Assembly (NCBI RefSeq): GCF_000143085.1
Contig: NC_014315.1
Location: 2,076,001-2,140,000, forward strand
Direction: 5' to 3'
Length of the DNA: 64,000 bases
From: Nitrosococcus watsonii C-113
GTDB taxonomy: Bacteria > Pseudomonadota > Gammaproteobacteria > Nitrosococcales > Nitrosococcaceae
Every line of letters starts with the position of its first letter. Position 1 is the stretch's first letter. The notes under the pieces are model-generated. The model did no database searches. It was given only the letters and a program-made list of their open reading frames with translations, and was not told the DNA's origin. Below, one piece after another: positions 51,815 through 60,395 of the stretch. Position numbers and translations under genes: made by a program.

Positions 51815-52750
51815 TTATAGCAAGGCTTTTCCTAATGCCACCCGTTCAGCGGCGGAGGAGGGAATTTCACTCAACCTTTGAATACGCTGGAGGCGCGGTT
51901 GCAGCCCTACCTTATTGGCTAGCTGAATACTAAGACCAGGGCGGGCATTAAGTTCCAGGACCATGGGACCCAAATCCCGATCTAACACAATATCAACTCC
52001 AATATAACCCAAATTCACTAAATCAAAGCAGCGGGCGGCTAACTCAAGAATACTCTCCCAATGGGGTATTCTTAAATTGCGTATCTCCCCCTCCGTATCA
52101 GGATGACGATCAATGGCATGTTCTTGCCATACACCAGCACTAGTCAGGCCAGTCACCAGATCAATACCCACGCCAATAGCCCCTTGGTGTAAATTAGCCC
52201 TGCCATCCGAAAGGCGCGTGGGTAACCGTATCATTGCCAAGGCGGGTATCCCCCGATAAACCAGGGTACGGATATCCGGAACGCCTAAATAGCTAACAGC
52301 CTCAAACAGCGGATCAAACTTGACCCGATATTCAATAAGCGCGGTATCAGGCAATCCTCCCAGGCTATACATGCCACTCAGGATATTGGCAATATGGTGG
52401 CCGATTTCTTCCGCGGACAAGATAACCCCGCTCGCCTTACGATAACGCCCTTGATAGCGCCCGTTAACCACCAAAATACCTTCTCCACCACTGCCATGGG
52501 CGGGCTTGATAACAAAATCCTCATGGGGGCCGAGTAACTTATCCAAGTGTTTAATCTGGTGAACCATTTCCACGACGCCATAAAGCTTGGGCACGGCAAT
52601 CCCCGCCGCTAAAGCCAATTGTTTAGTGCGTCTTTTATCGTCTACTAAAGGATAATGATGCCGCGGATTAAAGGGCAAAATATAATCAGCATTGCGTTGA
52701 TTTATGCCTAGAACCCCCTGCTGCCGTAAACGCCGCCAAGGAAAGATCAT
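51815..52750 (-). CDS. ATP-grasp protein (alpha-L-glutamate ligase-like, RimK type)
   Basis: The product has 311 residues from MIFPWRRLRQQGVLGINQR, with ATG overlapping the upstream stop (ATGA). ATP-grasp features are DFVIKPAHGSGGEGILVV (nucleotide-binding Lys and Gly loop), IEYRVKFDPLFE and the acidic metal site MVLELNARPGLSIQLANK. RimK-like enzymes ligate amino acids to a carboxylate. The substrate here is unknown. It is the last gene of a three-gene set with a 7TM inactive transglutaminase and a retropepsin-like protein, a set that is conserved in many gammaproteobacteria. Confidence 0.9.
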   Translation of the reverse strand: MIFPWRRLRQQGVLGINQRNADYILPFNPRHHYPLVDDKRRTKQLALAAGIAVPKLYGVVEMVHQIKHLDKLLGPHEDFVIKPAHGSGGEGILVVNGRYQGRYRKASGVILSAEEIGHHIANILSGMYSLGGLPDTALIEYRVKFDPLFEAVSYLGVPDIRTLVYRGIPALAMIRLPTRLSDGRANLHQGAIGVGIDLVTGLTSAGVWQEHAIDRHPDTEGEIRNLRIPHWESILELAARCFDLVNLGYIGVDIVLDRDLGPMVLELNARPGLSIQLANKVGLQPRLQRIQRLSEIPSSAAERVALGKALL

Positions 52751-54285
52751 GGCATTTCCATTTTCCGCAAGAATTCCTTGAAACGCCAAATCTCCGTTAA
52801 CCGATAGCCCGTATAACGGCCCAACAATAAGGTCATGGCTAACACCACCAACAGCAATTCAGGAAAAACAAAAACCAGATGTTCCAATAGCTTATTGGCC
52901 ATTAATAAATAACCCAAGATAGCCACCAACAAGCTTCCAAGCCCTTGTTGCAGCGCTTCTCCAGGGCCATGCTCCTCCCAAACCAGCGACATGCGCTCAA
53001 TGGTCATGGTCAAAATCACCATCGGGAAGAGAGCCACGGACAGGCCCCGTTCTAGCCCCATTTTATGAGTCAGCACGCTAATAACCGCCATTAAAAGAAT
53101 CACCATCACCAGTACCGAAGCCAGGCGCGGCACTAGCAGTAATTTAAGATATTCCAAATAAAAGCGCAGTATCAAACCAATAGCCACGATCCCGGCAAAC
53201 ATCGCGACTCCCCACAGAAGATCGGTTTCTCGGAATGCCAGAGCTATCAAAATAGGCATAAACGTACCAAACGTTTTAATGCCAACAATATTCCGCAGCA
53301 CGACAATCAAAAAAGTCCCAATAGGGATTAACAGTAGAACCCGGTAGACATTCTGGGTCTGCACGGGGAGGCTAAATAGGGAAAAATCCATTATCAGAGA
53401 GTTAATTTGCCGCGCTCGCTGCTCCGCGACCAAAACCAACTCTTGAAAACGACTCGAAACAGAGTATTCCACCTTGGGTGATCCGCCGCCCTCTAACTCG
53501 AGCAAGGGCTCATCCCCCACATGCCAAATCAATGCGTTCGCTGGGAATCCCCGGCTTCCTGTTTTAGGATTAAAAGCTAACCATTCCCGTCCATTATTGA
53601 CTTCTAGCCAAGGAATGAGCTTACTACGGCTAATATCGCCTTTTAATGGCAAGATGTAAACCATACGGGCAGGAATCCGGGCGCCGGCTAAAATATAAAT
53701 AACTTGCTTTACCCACGCGCCCTCGCTTTCAATGCCTTTGCGCAAAATTTGAACATTTTCAGTAGGATTAGAGGCATTGAGACGGGCCAGAAGTTCTCCG
53801 GAAAAGGAAGCCACATCAGCGGATTTACGGCGCACCTCTTCTAATAACGCCTGCACTACTGAGCCCATGGGCTCAGGATAATCGGGCGCGGCCGGAAAGG
53901 AGGGGACTTTTTCCTTCGGTGGTTTTATAGGGGCAATCTCAGGTGCTAATTCAATCCGGTAGTACAACACCTGCTTCCCCTCGGCCCGGCGCACCGCCCA
54001 TTGGGCAGTGCGATTAATACCCCCGTCATCCGTGGTTAAACCATATTTACTGGAGATGAAGTCTTCTCCCACGACAGTAAAGCCGGGGGGAGCACTTGGA
54101 ATATAGAAGCGCACTTTCACCGGACCACCTTTGGCTTCAAAGGCGAGGCGGGCCTCTACCATCCAAACTTCGGTTTGCTCGGCTGGCAATACCGGCAAAC
54201 CAAGCCGGGTTACCTTATAATAAGCCAAGCCTAACCCAATCATCACCAGGAGAAGAGCAAGGACCTTGATATGGAGATTCTTCAA
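52747..54285 (-). CDS. Inactive transglutaminase fused to seven-helix membrane domain
   Basis: The product has 512 residues. One N-terminal helix (about 7-25) is followed by a periplasmic domain. The transglutaminase-like region lies at about 185-265 (GAWVKQVIYILAGARIPARM). It lacks the Cys of active enzymes at that site, so it is probably an inactive binding domain. Seven membrane helices occupy about 320-510, with FGTFMPILIALAFRETDLLW and FPMVILTMTIERMSLVWEEH. This is the 7TM_transglut arrangement. It is coupled to the ATP-grasp gene by ATGA and lies about 50 bp after the retropepsin-like gene. The three products probably act together at the inner membrane. Confidence 0.87.
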   Translation of the reverse strand: MKNLHIKVLALLLVMIGLGLAYYKVTRLGLPVLPAEQTEVWMVEARLAFEAKGGPVKVRFYIPSAPPGFTVVGEDFISSKYGLTTDDGGINRTAQWAVRRAEGKQVLYYRIELAPEIAPIKPPKEKVPSFPAAPDYPEPMGSVVQALLEEVRRKSADVASFSGELLARLNASNPTENVQILRKGIESEGAWVKQVIYILAGARIPARMVYILPLKGDISRSKLIPWLEVNNGREWLAFNPKTGSRGFPANALIWHVGDEPLLELEGGGSPKVEYSVSSRFQELVLVAEQRARQINSLIMDFSLFSLPVQTQNVYRVLLLIPIGTFLIVVLRNIVGIKTFGTFMPILIALAFRETDLLWGVAMFAGIVAIGLILRFYLEYLKLLLVPRLASVLVMVILLMAVISVLTHKMGLERGLSVALFPMVILTMTIERMSLVWEEHGPGEALQQGLGSLLVAILGYLLMANKLLEHLVFVFPELLLVVLAMTLLLGRYTGYRLTEIWRFKEFLRKMEMP

Positions 54286-54332
54286 ATTTTATTTTCCAAC
54301 AAGCTGCTGACTGCTGAACCTAGCGCAAGCAC

Positions 54333-54902
54333 TTAGTCTTTAGGAACTTCGCTGGCAGTATATTCTATCAAACAAGTCTTCCATCCTTCGCTTGTAAGAA
54401 AAGTTTTACCGGGATCAATGAGGGCCACCTTTCTCAGAAAACGACGGCCCAAAAGAACCGGATAATTTAACTGGCTACGGTCAACTAAACTAAACTGGAC
54501 TCTATGGTGTTTACCGTTTAAACAAAGCTTCAAGTTAACCACGGGCCGCCTTTTAGCGCTGCCCCGATGCCGCTTTATAAGCACATCACGGACTAATGGC
54601 TGCTCCATCTGAAACTGCTTTATCTCTTTTCCCTTTATTTCCACAGCAAGCGCAAAACGTACCCATTCTTCATCACCCTTCTTAAACCGAACAATATGTT
54701 CAGCATGCAATGATGAGGTTTTAGCGCCAGAGTCCAGCTTCGCCTTAAGCTCGACACCCCAAGGAATGAAAACCACTGGCTCTACCCACCCCATGATAGC
54801 CCGTTCCTTCGTACTCTTTTTTTCACTGCCAGCATCCGTAGCTTTGGCAACCCCCCCCAGGAGCAACCAAAATACCATCACCGTTCCAACAAAACGTAAC
54901 AT
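54333..54902 (-). CDS. Exported retropepsin-like protein (RimK-associated DUF785)
   Basis: The product has 189 residues from MLRFVGTVMVFWLLLGGVAK, a signal peptide; the longer frame to 54986 is not preferred because GGAAA precedes this ATG. The aspartic-peptidase core is AKLDSGAKTSSLHAE, with the flap RFALAVEIKGKEIKQFQ, and LLGRRFLRKVALIDPGKTF near the end. These proteins were annotated as ATP-dependent zinc proteases but have a retropepsin fold with a single Asp. They are found with RimK-like and 7TM transglutaminase genes, as here. It probably acts in the periplasm. Confidence 0.87.
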   Translation of the reverse strand: MLRFVGTVMVFWLLLGGVAKATDAGSEKKSTKERAIMGWVEPVVFIPWGVELKAKLDSGAKTSSLHAEHIVRFKKGDEEWVRFALAVEIKGKEIKQFQMEQPLVRDVLIKRHRGSAKRRPVVNLKLCLNGKHHRVQFSLVDRSQLNYPVLLGRRFLRKVALIDPGKTFLTSEGWKTCLIEYTASEVPKD

Positions 54903-55020
54903 AAAATTTTCCAATTTTTTTATTCTGGTAAGAACAAGTGCCCATCTTAACAAAAACCACTTCAGCCCGCCCATGGATTTACCCAATCACAAAAAGCCTT
55001 ATCAATCATTTAATTACCGT

Positions 55021-55683
55021 TTAGTCCCTAAGCTGGAGAAAACCTAAATAGCGGGGCACACGGCGCTGATAAGCACGGTAAGCCTCACCAAACCGAATCT
55101 CTAGCTGGCTTTCCTCTAGCAAAATACGATAGTGCATACTCAAAAGATAAATCCCCATGCCCAAAGCCATCACTAGGCTAGGAAAATAACAGAATAGCCC
55201 AAGCAATAGCCCATAATTCCCTACTAAGCCTGGATTGCGGGACCATCGAAATAGTCCTTGAAGCTGTAACTCCGATCCCATTTTTCTGAAAGGGTTTTTG
55301 GTCATTCCCCTACGCATCTCCAGCACACTTATCAAAGTAAAAACCGATCCCGAAATGATCAAGCCTATCGCCACCCATCGAAGCAAAAGGGTTTCAAAAA
55401 TGGGGATAGGCCATAAATAATCCTTGAGTTGGGGAAAAAATATTTGTCCCAAAGGGAGTAAAAAAGCAATTAAAATCAGCCCTGTAGGTAACAAAAAAAC
55501 TAACAATTTACGCCCTAGCGAAGCCTGGTGGGCCTGACGCAACCCCCCAGAAAGGCATGACCCCGGGGGCTGCTTGGAGGCCAGCAGCTGGTAAGTGGAA
55601 GCTTCGCTGGGCACTGGCAAAAAAACCAATTCAACCACCATTAACCCATAAGCACCTAATATAATGAGTTCGAAAGCAGACAT
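55021..55683 (-). CDS. Membrane-bound PEMT/ICMT-like methyltransferase
   Basis: The product has 220 residues with about five hydrophobic helices. The C-terminal methyltransferase signature is GLFRWSRNPGLVGNYGLLLG (Arg-Asn-Pro variant of RHP), with YRILLEESQLEIRFGEAYRA and RVPRYLGFL. Such enzymes methylate lipids or prenyl groups with S-adenosylmethionine. It starts 21 bp after the CDP-alcohol phosphatidyltransferase gene on the same strand, so the two probably form an operon and may act on the same lipid. The substrate is unknown. Confidence 0.8.
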   Translation of the reverse strand: MSAFELIILGAYGLMVVELVFLPVPSEASTYQLLASKQPPGSCLSGGLRQAHQASLGRKLLVFLLPTGLILIAFLLPLGQIFFPQLKDYLWPIPIFETLLLRWVAIGLIISGSVFTLISVLEMRRGMTKNPFRKMGSELQLQGLFRWSRNPGLVGNYGLLLGLFCYFPSLVMALGMGIYLLSMHYRILLEESQLEIRFGEAYRAYQRRVPRYLGFLQLRD

Positions 55684-55704
55684 GTGACCCTGAAATCAAA
55701 CCTT

Positions 55705-56445
55705 CTAGGAACGAAGAAAAGGGGCGAAGCGCGTCTTGAACTGATAAAAAAGATCGTCAGCGAAAGAATAGGTTAGAAAACCAAGCGCCAAAGTACTGAA
55801 TAGAGTTTTTACCGGCAAAGCCAAAGAGGGCAACAGATTAGCCAACAAAGCCACCTGGATGGTTGCACAGACAACCCGGCCCCGAAAATTACCTCCGGCT
55901 TTAGGCTTCGGATCATCCGCGGGAATCGCAAACATTTCCAATAATAAGATATACCCATAGCGATAAGCAGGAAATAAGAGCACCCACAGGGCCAAACCTC
56001 CCACACTAGCCCCTAATACCGCAAGCATAAAAACCAGCGTTTGATCGGTTTCAGCATCCAGGATTGCCCCCTGAGGAGTTCCGCCGTAGCGGTCAGCCAG
56101 CCAACCATCCAGCCAATCGCCCAGGGAAGCCAGACTCAGCATGATGAAAATCCATAGTAGCGCCTCCTCAAAAGTGGCTACCAACAAGCCTGCGATTGAT
56201 AAAAAAAACCGCAGTAGCGTTGCCCAATCCGCGGGCGTTCGCCAAACACGGAGGCAACAGATCAGGAAACCGTGGTTGCCCAGAAGCCAAAAAGCGATCA
56301 CGAGAATGACATAAGCATAGCCAGCGGGAACCTTTTGTAGATAAAATGCACTAGCCGCTAGCAATAAAACAGAAATTAATGATTGAAAAATCAGGAATCT
56401 GCGGTATTTTTGCCGGGAAATGTGGTTGTGGTAACCTTCAGCCAT
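55705..56445 (-). CDS. CDP-alcohol phosphatidyltransferase family membrane enzyme
   Basis: The product has 246 residues and five to six membrane helices. The catalytic CDP-OH motif is SLGDWLDGWLADRYGGTPQG followed by ILDAETDQ, supplying the Asp residues that bind metal and CDP. The family joins a CDP-activated lipid to an alcohol such as inositol, glycerol phosphate or serine. The alcohol here is unknown. It is divergent from the RibD-like gene with a 44-bp shared promoter gap, and co-directional with the methyltransferase. Together they suggest a glycolipid pathway. Confidence 0.86.
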   Translation of the reverse strand: MAEGYHNHISRQKYRRFLIFQSLISVLLLAASAFYLQKVPAGYAYVILVIAFWLLGNHGFLICCLRVWRTPADWATLLRFFLSIAGLLVATFEEALLWIFIMLSLASLGDWLDGWLADRYGGTPQGAILDAETDQTLVFMLAVLGASVGGLALWVLLFPAYRYGYILLLEMFAIPADDPKPKAGGNFRGRVVCATIQVALLANLLPSLALPVKTLFSTLALGFLTYSFADDLFYQFKTRFAPFLRS

Positions 56446-56489
56446 AGAAACCCGCGTTCATCGTTTAAAAATAGAGCAATTTAGCGCTT

Positions 56490-57584
56490 ATGGAATGTGC
56501 CATACTTGACTCCTCAGTTAATCGAATCTGGGAGAGCCTGCTTGATTTTAAACGTTGGCGCCGAAACAAGAGCACCGCGCCAGAGGTTCCCTATGTTTTC
56601 TTCTATCCCATCGAAACGGAGCAGCAACCGTCTCAATGGCACTTTACGGCTGGTCTGGAAATAATAGCAAAAACCGCGCCCAAGGCGCTTATCATCGTTT
56701 ATCTCTCCACGCCTAAGCCACCTTATCCTCATTTAGACGAAGCGGCCATCGCCTCTATTCCCACACTGCTAGCTTTTGACTCTGCAGCGTTATCTCTCGG
56801 CGCCTCACCTTGGATTCATGCCTGCGGTCCCAAACTACCCAGCCACTTGCTCACCGCTTTTCGTCTTTATTTACCCTGCCTCGCCGGCCATCATATCGCA
56901 TCCCAAAAACGCTTGCCATGGATTAGTACTCACCTGGCACAAACCTTGGACGGTAAAATCGCCGCTGCAAGTGGACACTCCCAGTGGATCAGCAATTACG
57001 CCGATCGCAAGCACGCCCATCGTCTCCGGGCACTGCATGATGCCGTGCTGGTGGGTCGGGGCACCGTAGAAAAAGATAATCCCCGCCTCACGGTACGCGA
57101 GGTTCCAGGGGAAAATCCTAAACGGGTAATTCTTGACCGTCAATGCCATTTACTGGCCGGAGAAAAGCCCTACCGAATTTTTCAGGAACCGGGCCATAAT
57201 TGGTTGCTCCATTCAGATAGCCTACATAAAATAGAAACACACTATGCCATTCCCAGAAAAGTCATCCCCCTGGGAGTAAGAGATCAAGCGGGAGAGAAAA
57301 ACGGCAAGTTAATGGATTTAAAAGCCATATTAGAGACGATTTGGTCTCTGGGAATACGCTCCGTCTTCGTGGAAGGTGGAAGCAAAACCCTCTCTTTTTT
57401 TCTGGCGGGAGGACAAACAAATTTGCTGCACCTCCATATTGCACCGCTTCTGCTAGGTTCTGGCTTGCCTTCCTTCCAGCTCCCTCCGGTTGCCCGTATC
57501 CAGGAGGGAACCTATTTTCATATGACTCACTTCTGCCTTGATAAGGAAATATTGCTGGAATGTCTACCCCGCCATCACGCTTAG
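56490..57584 (+). CDS. RibD C-terminal-like reductase with extended N-terminus
   Basis: The product has 364 residues. The C-terminal half (about 150-360) is the dihydrofolate reductase-like RibD reductase: WISTHLAQTLDGKIAAASG, SQWISNYADRKHAHRLRALH, DAVLVGRGTVEKDNPRLTVR and the NADPH part SVFVEGGSKTLSFFLAGGQT. The first 145 residues are not the RibD deaminase (no CDA zinc motif) and are not recognised. RibD reduces a pyrimidine ribose to ribitol in riboflavin synthesis. A cluster with a PTPS-like gene suggests reduction of a pterin or pyrimidine precursor. It overlaps the next gene by 25 bases. Confidence 0.82.
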   Translation: MECAILDSSVNRIWESLLDFKRWRRNKSTAPEVPYVFFYPIETEQQPSQWHFTAGLEIIAKTAPKALIIVYLSTPKPPYPHLDEAAIASIPTLLAFDSAALSLGASPWIHACGPKLPSHLLTAFRLYLPCLAGHHIASQKRLPWISTHLAQTLDGKIAAASGHSQWISNYADRKHAHRLRALHDAVLVGRGTVEKDNPRLTVREVPGENPKRVILDRQCHLLAGEKPYRIFQEPGHNWLLHSDSLHKIETHYAIPRKVIPLGVRDQAGEKNGKLMDLKAILETIWSLGIRSVFVEGGSKTLSFFLAGGQTNLLHLHIAPLLLGSGLPSFQLPPVARIQEGTYFHMTHFCLDKEILLECLPRHHA

Positions 57585-58591
57585 TTCCATCTATCGCCCG
57601 GGCTTATTGGGTGGAAACGCCTGGGAAAGGCGTCATTCGCCAGGAAACGCTTTCTGTGCCGGTGCCGGTAGGTTACAGTCTCCTTGAAACCTGGCTAACT
57701 GGTATCAGCCCTGGGACAGAGCGATTAGTCGGCTTAGGGAAGGTGCCTGCGGAATGCTGGCAAGCCATGGCTTGCCCTGCTATGGGGGGATCATTCAAGC
57801 TGCCAGTCAAATACGGATATTGCCTCCTAGGCCAGGCTATTAATGGCCCCTACGCTGACCAGCTCGTCTTTGCCATGCACCCCCACCAAGATTACGCAAT
57901 CGTCCCCAATAAGCAACTATTACCCCTCCCCCAGAATATCCCCCCTCTACGGGCTGCTCTGCTTCCTAACCTGGAAACTGCCCTGAACGCCATTTGGGAC
58001 AGCGAATACCAGGCGCCAGCGCCGGTAGCCATCGTCGGTGGCGGCATGGTGGGTTTGCTTATCGCCTTTTTGCTCAAAGCTGCCTGGGACGCCTTCCCTA
58101 TTATTATTGAGCGCGATCCACAGCGCCGGCAACTCATTGAAAAACTGGGATGGGGACTCACTATCCTTGACGTTCGGGATGTCCCCCAAGGGGTATTTTC
58201 CGTCTGTTTTCATGCCTCGGGACAAGGACCGGGGCTGCAAACTGCCTTGGATAGCGTGGGGTTTGAAGGAAAAGTCATTGAGGTGAGCTGGTTGGCTCAT
58301 CAGCCGGTCACCCTTAACCTGGGCGGATCTTTTCACTTCCAAAGAAAACAAATTCTCTCTTCCCAAGTCAGCACGATTGCCAAACCCAAGCGTGAACATA
58401 CCAACCACCAACAGCGTTTAGAGCAGGTTCTGAATTATTTGCAAAACCCCTTACTTGATGCTCTCATTGCTCCCGCAATTACTTTTGATAATCTGCCTTT
58501 TTTTATGCAAGAACTCTATCATGAAAATCCGGTTGGCTTTTTCTTTGCCGTGACCTATCCACCCTTTCACCCTCGACTCCACAAAGGCTAA
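57560..58591 (+). CDS. Zinc-less medium-chain dehydrogenase-like protein
   Basis: The product has 343 residues. A GroES-like N-terminal half (PVGYSLLETWLTGISPGTER) is followed by a Rossmann fold with PVAIVGGGMVGLLIAFLL (nucleotide-binding glycines) and FPIIIERDPQRRQL. Typical Zn ligands of alcohol dehydrogenases (the Cys/His/Glu set) are not seen, so it probably lacks catalytic Zn. The cofactor is NAD(P)H. The substrate is unknown. It sits between the RibD-like and PTPS-like genes in a tight operon. Confidence 0.78.
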   Translation: MSTPPSRLVPSIARAYWVETPGKGVIRQETLSVPVPVGYSLLETWLTGISPGTERLVGLGKVPAECWQAMACPAMGGSFKLPVKYGYCLLGQAINGPYADQLVFAMHPHQDYAIVPNKQLLPLPQNIPPLRAALLPNLETALNAIWDSEYQAPAPVAIVGGGMVGLLIAFLLKAAWDAFPIIIERDPQRRQLIEKLGWGLTILDVRDVPQGVFSVCFHASGQGPGLQTALDSVGFEGKVIEVSWLAHQPVTLNLGGSFHFQRKQILSSQVSTIAKPKREHTNHQQRLEQVLNYLQNPLLDALIAPAITFDNLPFFMQELYHENPVGFFFAVTYPPFHPRLHKG

Positions 58592-58596
58592 ATTTT

Positions 58597-58977
58597 ATGT
58601 ATACCCTTGCTGTCAAAGACCATTTTATGATTGCCCATAGCCTGCAAGGAGAGATTTTTGGCCCTGCCCAGGGACTTCATGGGGCCACCTATAATGTGAC
58701 CGCCGAGTTTCATACTGAGCAGCTAAACCAGGATGGCATAGTGATTGACATTGGCCTAGCCCTTAAGGCCCTGCAAGCAGTCCTCGCCTTGCTTAATTAC
58801 AAAAATCTAGATGAAGAAGAGTCATTCCGTGGCATCAATACCACCACTGAATATTTGGCCCACTATATTCATGGTCAACTCGCCAAACGAGTCCGCGCTA
58901 CCTTCCAGGGAAAGCTCAAAATCACCTTGGAAGAAAGCCACGTGGCTTGGGGCGCCTATGAAGGGCCGGTCTCTTGA
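58597..58977 (+). CDS. 6-pyruvoyl-tetrahydropterin synthase/QueD-like protein with altered active site
   Basis: The product has 126 residues with the T-fold pattern: LAVKDHFMIAHSLQGEIFGP, GLHGATYNVTAEFH, GIVIDIGLALKALQAVLALL and ITLEESHVAWGAYEG. The usual metal triad (His-x-His in LHGHxY) is reduced: LHGATY has only the first His. The Cys expected four residues before LHG is Ala, and the DHxxLN His is missing (LNYKNLDE). The Glu near the end is kept. Classic PTPS or QueD chemistry is unlikely unchanged. It starts five bases after the dehydrogenase gene. Confidence 0.82.
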   Translation: MYTLAVKDHFMIAHSLQGEIFGPAQGLHGATYNVTAEFHTEQLNQDGIVIDIGLALKALQAVLALLNYKNLDEEESFRGINTTTEYLAHYIHGQLAKRVRATFQGKLKITLEESHVAWGAYEGPVS

Positions 58978-58980
58978 GCC

Positions 58981-60042
58981 ATGATTTACCTGCTGGCGCC
59001 CGCGCCCAAGGGCCAAGTTTCAGGCGGATTCCGGGTCAACGAAATGCTGCGGAGACGCCTTGCCACGACTGGAACTGGCGCTGGCATTTATGTTCCATCC
59101 CAACAAGTACCTGAAAAAATTCTAACCCTACCCTCTGCATCGCCAACGCATATTGTCCTGGACAGCCTTTACCTGACCACCCTCAATCCTGCTCATCTAA
59201 GCTGCGCCCTCAGCAGCCGCAATCACCCGACTTATCTCTATTTCTTGCTCCACTTTCTGCCTTGCATGGACCTCTTCCTTTCCTCTGCGGAACGAAAAGC
59301 CTTGCAAAAAAAAGAGCATGCGTTACTCGCTTTAGCGGATGCAGTCATCGTCCCTGGTCCCACCTTGGCAAGTTATTTAAAAAGCGAATCGTTATACGCG
59401 GGGCCTATCCGTCATTGCCCGCCAGGGATTGAGTTTACCGAATCCGATACGCCTCAAGCCGATCCCTGGAAAAAAGATTCCAGGCCCCGATTAATAACGT
59501 TAGGAACCTTAAGCCGCGGTAAAGGACAATTAGAAATTTTATCCTACTTACAGCAAATGAACCCTGCCTTTAAAGGCACGTGGCGACTGTTTGGCGATTT
59601 ACATAGAGAGCCTGAAATTCATCGCCTCTTTAAAAGAAAACTAAGGAATAGCGAGTTAAAAAGATCAATACATGCAGGCCATAACATCCCCCACTCACTC
59701 ATCAGCCCCACCTTACGGGGGGCTGATTTGCTGGTTTCAGCTTCCTATTTTGAGTCCTACGGCATGGCTATCGCTGAAGCAGCGGCTATGGGCATCCCTG
59801 TTTTAGCCTACCAGGTAGGGGAAACCCGGCAGTGGATTAAAGAGGGAGAAAATGGGTTTTTAATTCCAAGCGGGGATAGAAAAAAATTTGCGGCAACCTT
59901 GGCAAAATTACTTTATCATCCTAAAAAACTCTTGCTTTTAAAGCAACAAGCACAAAAAAAATTGGCGGAAACTCTCTTTCCGACCTGGGAATTAACATTT
60001 CAGTCTTTTTTAAAAACCTTTGAAAAAACAGGGATTTCCTAA
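58981..60042 (+). CDS. GT4-type glycosyltransferase
   Basis: The product has 353 residues of the GT-B fold. The N-terminal half has LLAPAPKGQVSGGFRVNEML. The donor-binding half has RPRLITLGTLSRGKGQLEIL, ADLLVSASYFESYGMAIAEA, and AAAMGIPVLAYQVGETRQW with the EX7E-type Glu pair. It probably adds a sugar from a nucleotide-sugar donor to an unknown acceptor. It starts three bases after the PTPS-like gene. Its place in this operon suggests glycosylation of a pterin- or pyrimidine-related compound, with the CDP-alcohol enzyme linking it to lipid; that is inference. Confidence 0.85.
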   Translation: MIYLLAPAPKGQVSGGFRVNEMLRRRLATTGTGAGIYVPSQQVPEKILTLPSASPTHIVLDSLYLTTLNPAHLSCALSSRNHPTYLYFLLHFLPCMDLFLSSAERKALQKKEHALLALADAVIVPGPTLASYLKSESLYAGPIRHCPPGIEFTESDTPQADPWKKDSRPRLITLGTLSRGKGQLEILSYLQQMNPAFKGTWRLFGDLHREPEIHRLFKRKLRNSELKRSIHAGHNIPHSLISPTLRGADLLVSASYFESYGMAIAEAAAMGIPVLAYQVGETRQWIKEGENGFLIPSGDRKKFAATLAKLLYHPKKLLLLKQQAQKKLAETLFPTWELTFQSFLKTFEKTGIS

Positions 60043-60050
60043 GATATAAT

Positions 60051-60395
60051 ATGGATAAAATATTTTACCTCACGATAGCGATAGCGGTTATAGGGCTCAC
60101 CTATCTTGCCTACCAACGCCCTGAAAAATACGAGCGGCTATTTAATTCACTCCAGGTTATTACATTCATAGTCTACGCTTGCCTAAGCATCTGGAATACC
60201 GCCTTGACTAAAGCTTTTGTCACGCTGACCCCATTTATAAAAGAAGGCCAACTGAAAAACGCGAACGCCACGTTAGAAATGCTACAGATTCCCTGGCTTC
60301 CGCTGCATATCATTATGGGCTCTCTCTTCGTTTATTTTTTGTTTCTAAGCTTCCTACCAAGAATCCGACAAGAAAAAAAGAAAAGAAAAGCCTGA
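60051..60395 (+). CDS. Small membrane protein at end of the pterin/glycosyltransferase operon
   Basis: The product has 114 residues with three hydrophobic segments (IFYLTIAIAVIGLTYLAYQ, QVITFIVYACLSIWNTALT, LHIIMGSLFVYFLFLSFLP). The C-terminus is strongly basic (RIRQEKKKRKA), which favours a cytoplasmic location. No family is recognised. It starts eight bases after the glycosyltransferase gene, so it belongs to the same operon. It might help membrane assembly of the product, but there is no direct evidence. Confidence 0.6.
   Translation: MDKIFYLTIAIAVIGLTYLAYQRPEKYERLFNSLQVITFIVYACLSIWNTALTKAFVTLTPFIKEGQLKNANATLEMLQIPWLPLHIIMGSLFVYFLFLSFLPRIRQEKKKRKA

Follow-up and report, generated by a model that had tools for sequence, protein, structure and literature searches.

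Nitrosococcus watsonii is a marine ammonia oxidiser, and the stretch of strain C-113 analysed here, called the window, comprises 64,000 nucleotides (C1:2076001-2140000); the genome has 3.37 Mb in 3 contigs. Seven of its genes, named from Pfam and NCBIfam, form a compact divergent cluster that includes a medium-chain dehydrogenase (MDR), a protein of the 6-pyruvoyltetrahydropterin synthase (PTPS) family and a glycosyltransferase of family GT4. These three genes form a real, dedicated, conserved and widespread cluster, which is functionally an orphan. We consider it fairly probable that the Nitrosococcus genes are a version of a widespread PTPS-IV pathway, in which a riboflavin-type pyrimidine would pass through the dehydrogenase, the T-fold protein, the GT4 enzyme and methylation, and would be joined to lipid where a CDP-alcohol gene is present. 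The genes are the following:

55021-55683, minus strand: PEMT/ICMT-type membrane methyltransferase (PF04191, PEMT, E 1.7e-06); accessory, not conserved across phyla
55705-56445, minus strand: CDP-alcohol phosphotransferase (PF01066, CDP-OH_P_transf, E 2.1e-12); divergent from the main operon
56490-57584, plus strand: RibD_C-type reductase, RibD-like (PF01872, E 1.7e-35)
57560-58591, plus strand: zinc-less MDR (TIGR01202, BchC, 41 bits against a cut-off of 291; ADH_zinc_N below cut-off)
58597-58977, plus strand: PTPS-IV T-fold protein (Pfam PTPS, E 1.6e-24; FGPAQ motif)
58981-60042, plus strand: retaining GT4 glycosyltransferase (PF00534, Glycos_transf_1, E 1.1e-18)
60051-60395, plus strand: small membrane protein without a Pfam or NCBIfam family; adjacent, not a conserved pathway member

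An earlier sequence-only reading had described these genes, their divergent packing and their spacing, and all were confirmed. The starts of the CDP-alcohol and RibD-like genes lie 44 bp apart, and the two minus-strand genes are separated by 21 bp. On the plus strand, the RibD-like and MDR frames overlap by 25 bp, followed by gaps of 5 bp (MDR-PTPS), 3 bp (PTPS-GT4) and 8 bp (GT4-small membrane gene). A promoter scan around the divergent gap gave no match lying fully inside it.

The sequence-only reading had staked its proposal on the genes occurring together in other genomes, and they do so across seven phyla. All 100 loci that carry MDR, PTPS and GT4 genes keep them in identical order and orientation, MDR>PTPS>GT4. 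A search with the MDR protein gave a match in 26 of 370 genomes of the host's class, with the same companion genes in the neighbouring regions. The PTPS-family scan of 84,980 species genomes gave relatives in at least 586 stretches, and the best 80 of these fall, by record titles, into Cyanobacteriota, Planctomycetota, Pseudomonadota, Gemmatimonadota, Bacteroidota, Acidobacteriota and Actinomycetota. Among sampled Pseudomonadota genomes, 32 of 397 contain PTPS-IV. Altogether 108 loci were mapped by profiles, and the counts for long loci refer to 64 PTPS-seeded loci, each 14 kb or longer. The companions found there are MDR (64), GT4 (62), an S-adenosylmethionine (SAM) methyltransferase (62), the CDP-alcohol gene (46), GTP cyclohydrolase II, or GCH II (42), a PF03706 protein (41), creatininase (38) and the RibD-like gene (31). 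In a matched control of 14 QueD-paralog loci from the same genomes, none has an MDR, GT4, CDP-alcohol, SAM methyltransferase or creatininase neighbour. The conserved order and the bare control loci place this gene set far beyond chance.

Beyond the genes of the window, the recurrent partners are thus a GCH II paralog (of PRK08815 type in gammaproteobacteria), creatininase, a class-I SAM methyltransferase, the PF03706 protein (LPG_synthase_TM, flippase-like), YceI and FkbM methyltransferases. Gene fusions tie partners together: GCH II with RibD in four relatives (L080, L081, L087, L088), RibD with creatininase in one (L136), GT4 with the SAM methyltransferase in five (L060, L136, L139, L146, L150), and GT4 with GCH II in one planctomycete open frame (L089:10393-12048). 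Two genomes carry the cluster split, with MDR and the CDP-alcohol gene in one part and PTPS, GT4 and SAM methyltransferase in the other. FkbM-family methyltransferases occur in 14 cluster loci, from cyanobacteria to relatives of Halomonas (e.g. L087:11488-12258, L104:14909-15889, L139:16206-16988). A search of viral contigs gave no relative. An anti-phage role was considered, since the GT4 protein passes the Pfam "GT4-conflict" model, and was set aside when PADLOC gave no match.

The PTPS-like protein is a member of PTPS-IV that has lost the residues of known PTPS chemistry. PTPS-IV is the subfamily of COG0720 defined by FGPAQ, described with 561 sequences and with PF00925 and PF01872 neighbours (PMC5445326). 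The window protein carries this signature, of which FGPA is invariant and Q nearly so among 19 aligned sequences. PF01872 adjoins it in the window; PF00925 is absent from the window cluster and is present in 42 of the 64 long loci of relatives. At the zinc-binding His30 position the protein has Ala (A30), with LHGA where HGH is expected, and the Cys is gone. The Asp-His dyad is replaced by N67/Y68, LNYKNLD aligning to LDHKNLD of 3i2b. The alignment keeps H14, H28, D51, E85 and E113 invariant, E113 being the Glu that anchors the pterin or pyrimidine. Identity as 6-pyruvoyltetrahydropterin synthase itself (PTPS-II) was rejected, as the protein lacks CxxxxxHGH, with its Cys and full zinc His set, and the Asp-His dyad. 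QueD (PTPS-I, CxxxHGH) was likewise rejected on an equivalog score of 39 bits against a cut-off of 89, and the N. watsonii genome has a separate PTPS copy (138 bits, Pfam PTPS), which we take as QueD. The closest solved structure is 3d7j (SCO6650, E 2e-38), which was reportedly found without zinc and PTPS activity, with a pterin-like site kept. In three loci, the PTPS variants mostly keep His-x-His (HSHH/HAHQ) where PTPS-IV has HGA (L080:7467-7970, L081:9031-9417, L082:4667-5047). These clusters have the same RibD-MDR-PTPS set, and apparently represent a sister pathway with a zinc site.

The MDR protein has invariant E54, H109, E139, Q269 and R286 and no zinc-ligand pattern. It was rejected as a zinc-dependent alcohol dehydrogenase, having SGIS.GTE and YGY where such enzymes usually carry their Cys and GHE motifs, and no ADH_N match. 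BchC is its best named family, but the score is far under the cut-off, which makes for distant likeness only, and the MDR gene is not chlorophyll-linked. Sequence and model mark the GT4 protein as an ordinary retaining GT-B enzyme: E258/E266 are conserved, and the model (pLDDT 91) has a GT-B fold. The folds nearest to it belong to generic GT4 enzymes that act on small molecules (BshA, SPS, MshA), and sucrose-phosphate synthase and MshA-type enzymes lead the family-profile search. The tetrahydrobiopterin glucosyltransferase 9v0l is a weak match (phmmer E 6e-7), ranking 39 by structure with Z 25.8 and a root-mean-square deviation of 3.2 over 307 residues. An acceptor could not be assigned from structure, the top matches being generic. 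In both the MDR and the GT4 trees, which contain several long branches, Nitrosococcus stands away from other gammaproteobacteria and groups with Nostoc, Planctomycetota and Bacteroidota. Such agreement is expected if the genes travel together.

The likely starting material is indicated by the partner enzymes. We aligned 53 cluster GCH II proteins to an E. coli RibA sequence and use its numbering. The S. coelicolor paralog SCO6655 is said to make formylaminopyrimidine because Met replaces Tyr105. A linked creatininase is found in 37 of 41 clusters with altered GCH II (Y105 to M/H/L or E53 to A/S) and in 0 of 12 with intact E53/Y105 (Fisher 7e-9, or 5e-6 when Streptomyces is collapsed; the loci share descent and are not independent). 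Beside the zinc Cys, many gammaproteobacterial, acidobacterial and gemmatimonadotal cluster GCH II proteins have HSAC instead of HSEC (L101, L107, L139, L159 and others), a variant for which we know of no described role. Clusters of this type have a linked creatininase in 11 of 12 cases, L068 being the exception. BrbF, a creatininase-family protein of Sinorhizobium, deformylates the same formylaminopyrimidine intermediate (PMC9478397). That creatininase appears only with an altered cyclohydrolase suggests an archaeal-type route to a ribityl-diaminopyrimidine phosphate.

The RibD-like protein of the window fits such a route. It has the RibD_C domain at residues 143-334 behind an N-terminal extension, lacks the deaminase, and keeps the reductase motifs DG, LR, D.P.L..R and EGG, as a stand-alone RibD_C reductase would. 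In its model (pLDDT 82.8), the C-terminal domain matches archaeal diaminopyrimidine reductases (2azn, TMt 0.84, root-mean-square deviation 2.7; 6p8c, TMt 0.84), and the fold comparison gave no separate identification for the N-terminal part. The protein is thus a predicted 2,5-diamino-6-ribosylaminopyrimidinone 5'-phosphate reductase. Taken together, the GCH II/creatininase correlation, the BrbF precedent and the motifs and fold of the reductase lead us to infer 2,5-diamino-6-ribitylamino-4(3H)-pyrimidinone 5'-phosphate as an intermediate of the early steps. A riboflavin-type pyrimidine is the probable precursor, which may undergo closure to a pterin and would then be glycosylated and methylated. 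The sequence-only reading, which proposed a heterocycle pathway with a glycosyltransferase, holds in that the pathway is dedicated, conserved and apparently uncharacterised. For the starting point, the gene company and the GCH II/creatininase pattern indicate a GCH II-derived riboflavin-type pyrimidine rather than a GTP cyclohydrolase I (GCH I) pterin.

The CDP-alcohol enzyme most resembles PgsA. Of its motif, DG..AR..G...D...D, the catalytic Asp residues (four in the motif) and the Gly are kept; in the window species the Arg is Asp118 and the spacer is one residue shorter. In 69 of 77 loci this gene and MDR are on opposite strands. The lipid attachment proposed by the sequence-only reading agrees with the frequent linkage of this gene, but cannot be a universal step, since a cluster-type copy is missing altogether from most of the tested genomes where it is unlinked. 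Attachment is plausible in lineages that bear the gene, and is likely to be lineage-specific or achieved otherwise where it is absent.

From these genes we infer a pathway whose substrates, products, order of steps and lipid attachment are read from sequence. In the fuller clusters elsewhere, a GCH II paralog would open GTP, in many lineages halting at the formylaminopyrimidine, and a creatininase-family formamidase would strip the formyl group. The RibD-like reductase would then convert ribosyl to ribityl, giving the intermediate named above, as in archaeal riboflavin and F420 synthesis. The zinc-less MDR may oxidise a side-chain alcohol. The PTPS-IV T-fold would hold the 2-amino-4-oxo ring through its conserved Glu; without a full zinc site and catalytic triad, it probably aids condensation or ring closure to a pterin and does not perform PTPS side-chain chemistry. 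Speculatively, a dihydropterin could form by ring closure onto the 5-amino group once the ribityl 2'-OH is oxidised, and a zinc-free T-fold would be suited to that reaction. The GT4 enzyme would attach a sugar, SAM methyltransferases would methylate, and in lineages with the gene, the window included, the CDP-alcohol phosphotransferase would join the alcohol or glycoside to a lipid phosphate. Carried to its full extent, this would be a new metabolite class in at least seven phyla. MDR would oxidise a ribityl-pyrimidine, a zinc-free T-fold would close it to a pterin (GCH I-like without GCH I), and the product would be glycosylated, methylated and, in many lineages, anchored to phospholipid by a dedicated CDP-alcohol phosphotransferase. 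We hold this complete version to be doubtful.

Several observations weigh against the riboflavin-type, lipid-joined pathway. The class of altered GCH II took in E53 after the data had been viewed, and the loci share descent. Only 3 of 30 long actinobacterial linked loci contain the RibD-like gene, and creatininase and intact GCH II are absent from Nitrosococcus (four genomes). Of 10 genomes without a linked CDP-alcohol gene, 2 have a cluster-type copy elsewhere and 8 have none. The core MDR-PTPS-GT4-SAM set occurs without this gene in Nostoc, Roseomonas and several Burkholderiales, with no cluster-type copy elsewhere in their genomes, which favours a soluble glycosylated pyrimidine or pterin, a cofactor or secondary metabolite. 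The early steps would be the same and only the last would differ, the CDP-alcohol enzyme, PF03706 and YceI being travelling transport or envelope genes. We give this a real but minority chance, given that in several phyla most loci have the CDP-alcohol gene next to MDR in divergent orientation, and that the two genes remain together in split clusters.

A true pterin pathway would instead have PTPS-IV and MDR act on a pterin from GCH I, either dihydroneopterin or its triphosphate, by analogy with biopterin glycoside synthesis, with GT4 glycosylating the pterin and the RibD-like protein as a pterin reductase. The retained pterin-anchoring Glu agrees with this, as does a match of the RibD-like model to Rv2671, solved with dihydropteridine ligands. 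The likeness of GT4 to 9v0l also fits, but is generic, and the catalytic residues of PTPS are lost. Moreover, the linked cyclohydrolase is of type II, not type I, and creatininase tracks its altered active site, so we regard a pterin origin as unlikely. Very improbable is a backup or compartment-specific riboflavin route among unrelated neighbours. GCH II, creatininase and RibD_C are indeed riboflavin-type enzymes, but neither lumazine synthase nor riboflavin synthase was recognised among the recurrent neighbours, the core of MDR, PTPS and GT4 does not vary, and RibD, riboflavin synthase-like and RibB-fused genes sit in a separate operon of the window genome.

The preferred riboflavin-type pathway resembles several known systems in part. 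Like the archaeal riboflavin/F420 route (ArfA/ArfB/ArfC) and BrbF of Rhizobiales, it implies GTP opening to a formylamino intermediate, deformylation and reduction; here, however, the opener is a GCH II paralog, not GCH III, and MDR, T-fold and GT4 follow instead of lumazine synthase. Bacterial tetrahydrobiopterin and cyanopterin glycoside synthesis likewise pairs a T-fold with a glycosyltransferase, and its 9v0l has the GT4 fold in common, whereas PTPS catalytic residues are lost here, GCH II and not GCH I is linked, and CDP-alcohol and PF03706 genes are present. Toxoflavin-type synthesis resembles the cluster in its GCH II-like and RibD-like enzymes and methyltransferase; it is not known to have a PTPS-IV, MDR, GT4 or CDP-alcohol gene. 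The PTPS-IV subfamily, which includes SCO6650, shares FGPAQ, its sequence (E 2e-38 to 3d7j) and a RibD_C neighbour with the window protein, and PF00925 as neighbour in relatives. A literature search on the gene combination, SCO6650/SCO6655 and PTPS-IV found no characterised product, and the full pathway is apparently undescribed there. The claim that no characterised pathway exists therefore stands for the product within that literature, but PTPS-IV and its neighbourhood of RibD and GCH II were already in print (PMC5445326). No function had been assigned to the subfamily, and the passages of that paper covered here do not mention the set of MDR, GT4, SAM, CDP-alcohol, creatininase and PF03706 genes.

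The PTPS-IV family has carried a name but no function since at least 2016-2017, and SCO6650 is its one solved structure. Its link, in seven phyla, to GCH II, formamidase and reductase, and to a dehydrogenase, a glycosyltransferase and an enzyme of phospholipid type, opens its function to direct tests in bacteria that are easy to grow. Such tests may reveal a cofactor, pigment or membrane lipid that many bacteria make and that has so far gone unseen, and many proteins whose present annotation is 6-carboxytetrahydropterin synthase or RibD would be put in their correct context.

The Nitrosococcus version has features of its own. In two congeners the SAM methyltransferase gene is linked to the cluster, whereas the window genome has it elsewhere, at C1:981515-982363. 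The only PF00925 copy in the genus is degenerate and fused to RibB, and it lacks the zinc Cys motif. Nitrosococcus has RibD, a riboflavin synthase-like gene and this fusion, with intact RibA in 0 of 4 genomes (G000:C1:1133204-1133683; L188:7584-8690). The small membrane protein, which the sequence-only reading had counted in the pathway, occurs only in the window genome and its nearest species; its inclusion came from adjacency alone, and we leave it out. The membrane methyltransferase is genus-wide and 39% identical to a gene beside the CDP-alcohol gene in the planctomycete PTPS-IV cluster L089; in N. wardiae it is truncated (L086:6458-6910), with its last residues in another frame. After it on the minus strand, at 51815-54986, follow an ATP-grasp_ST protein, an inactive transglutaminase with 7 transmembrane helices and a RimB-like zinc protease, a triad that adjoins the cluster in 4 of 4 Nitrosococcus genomes.

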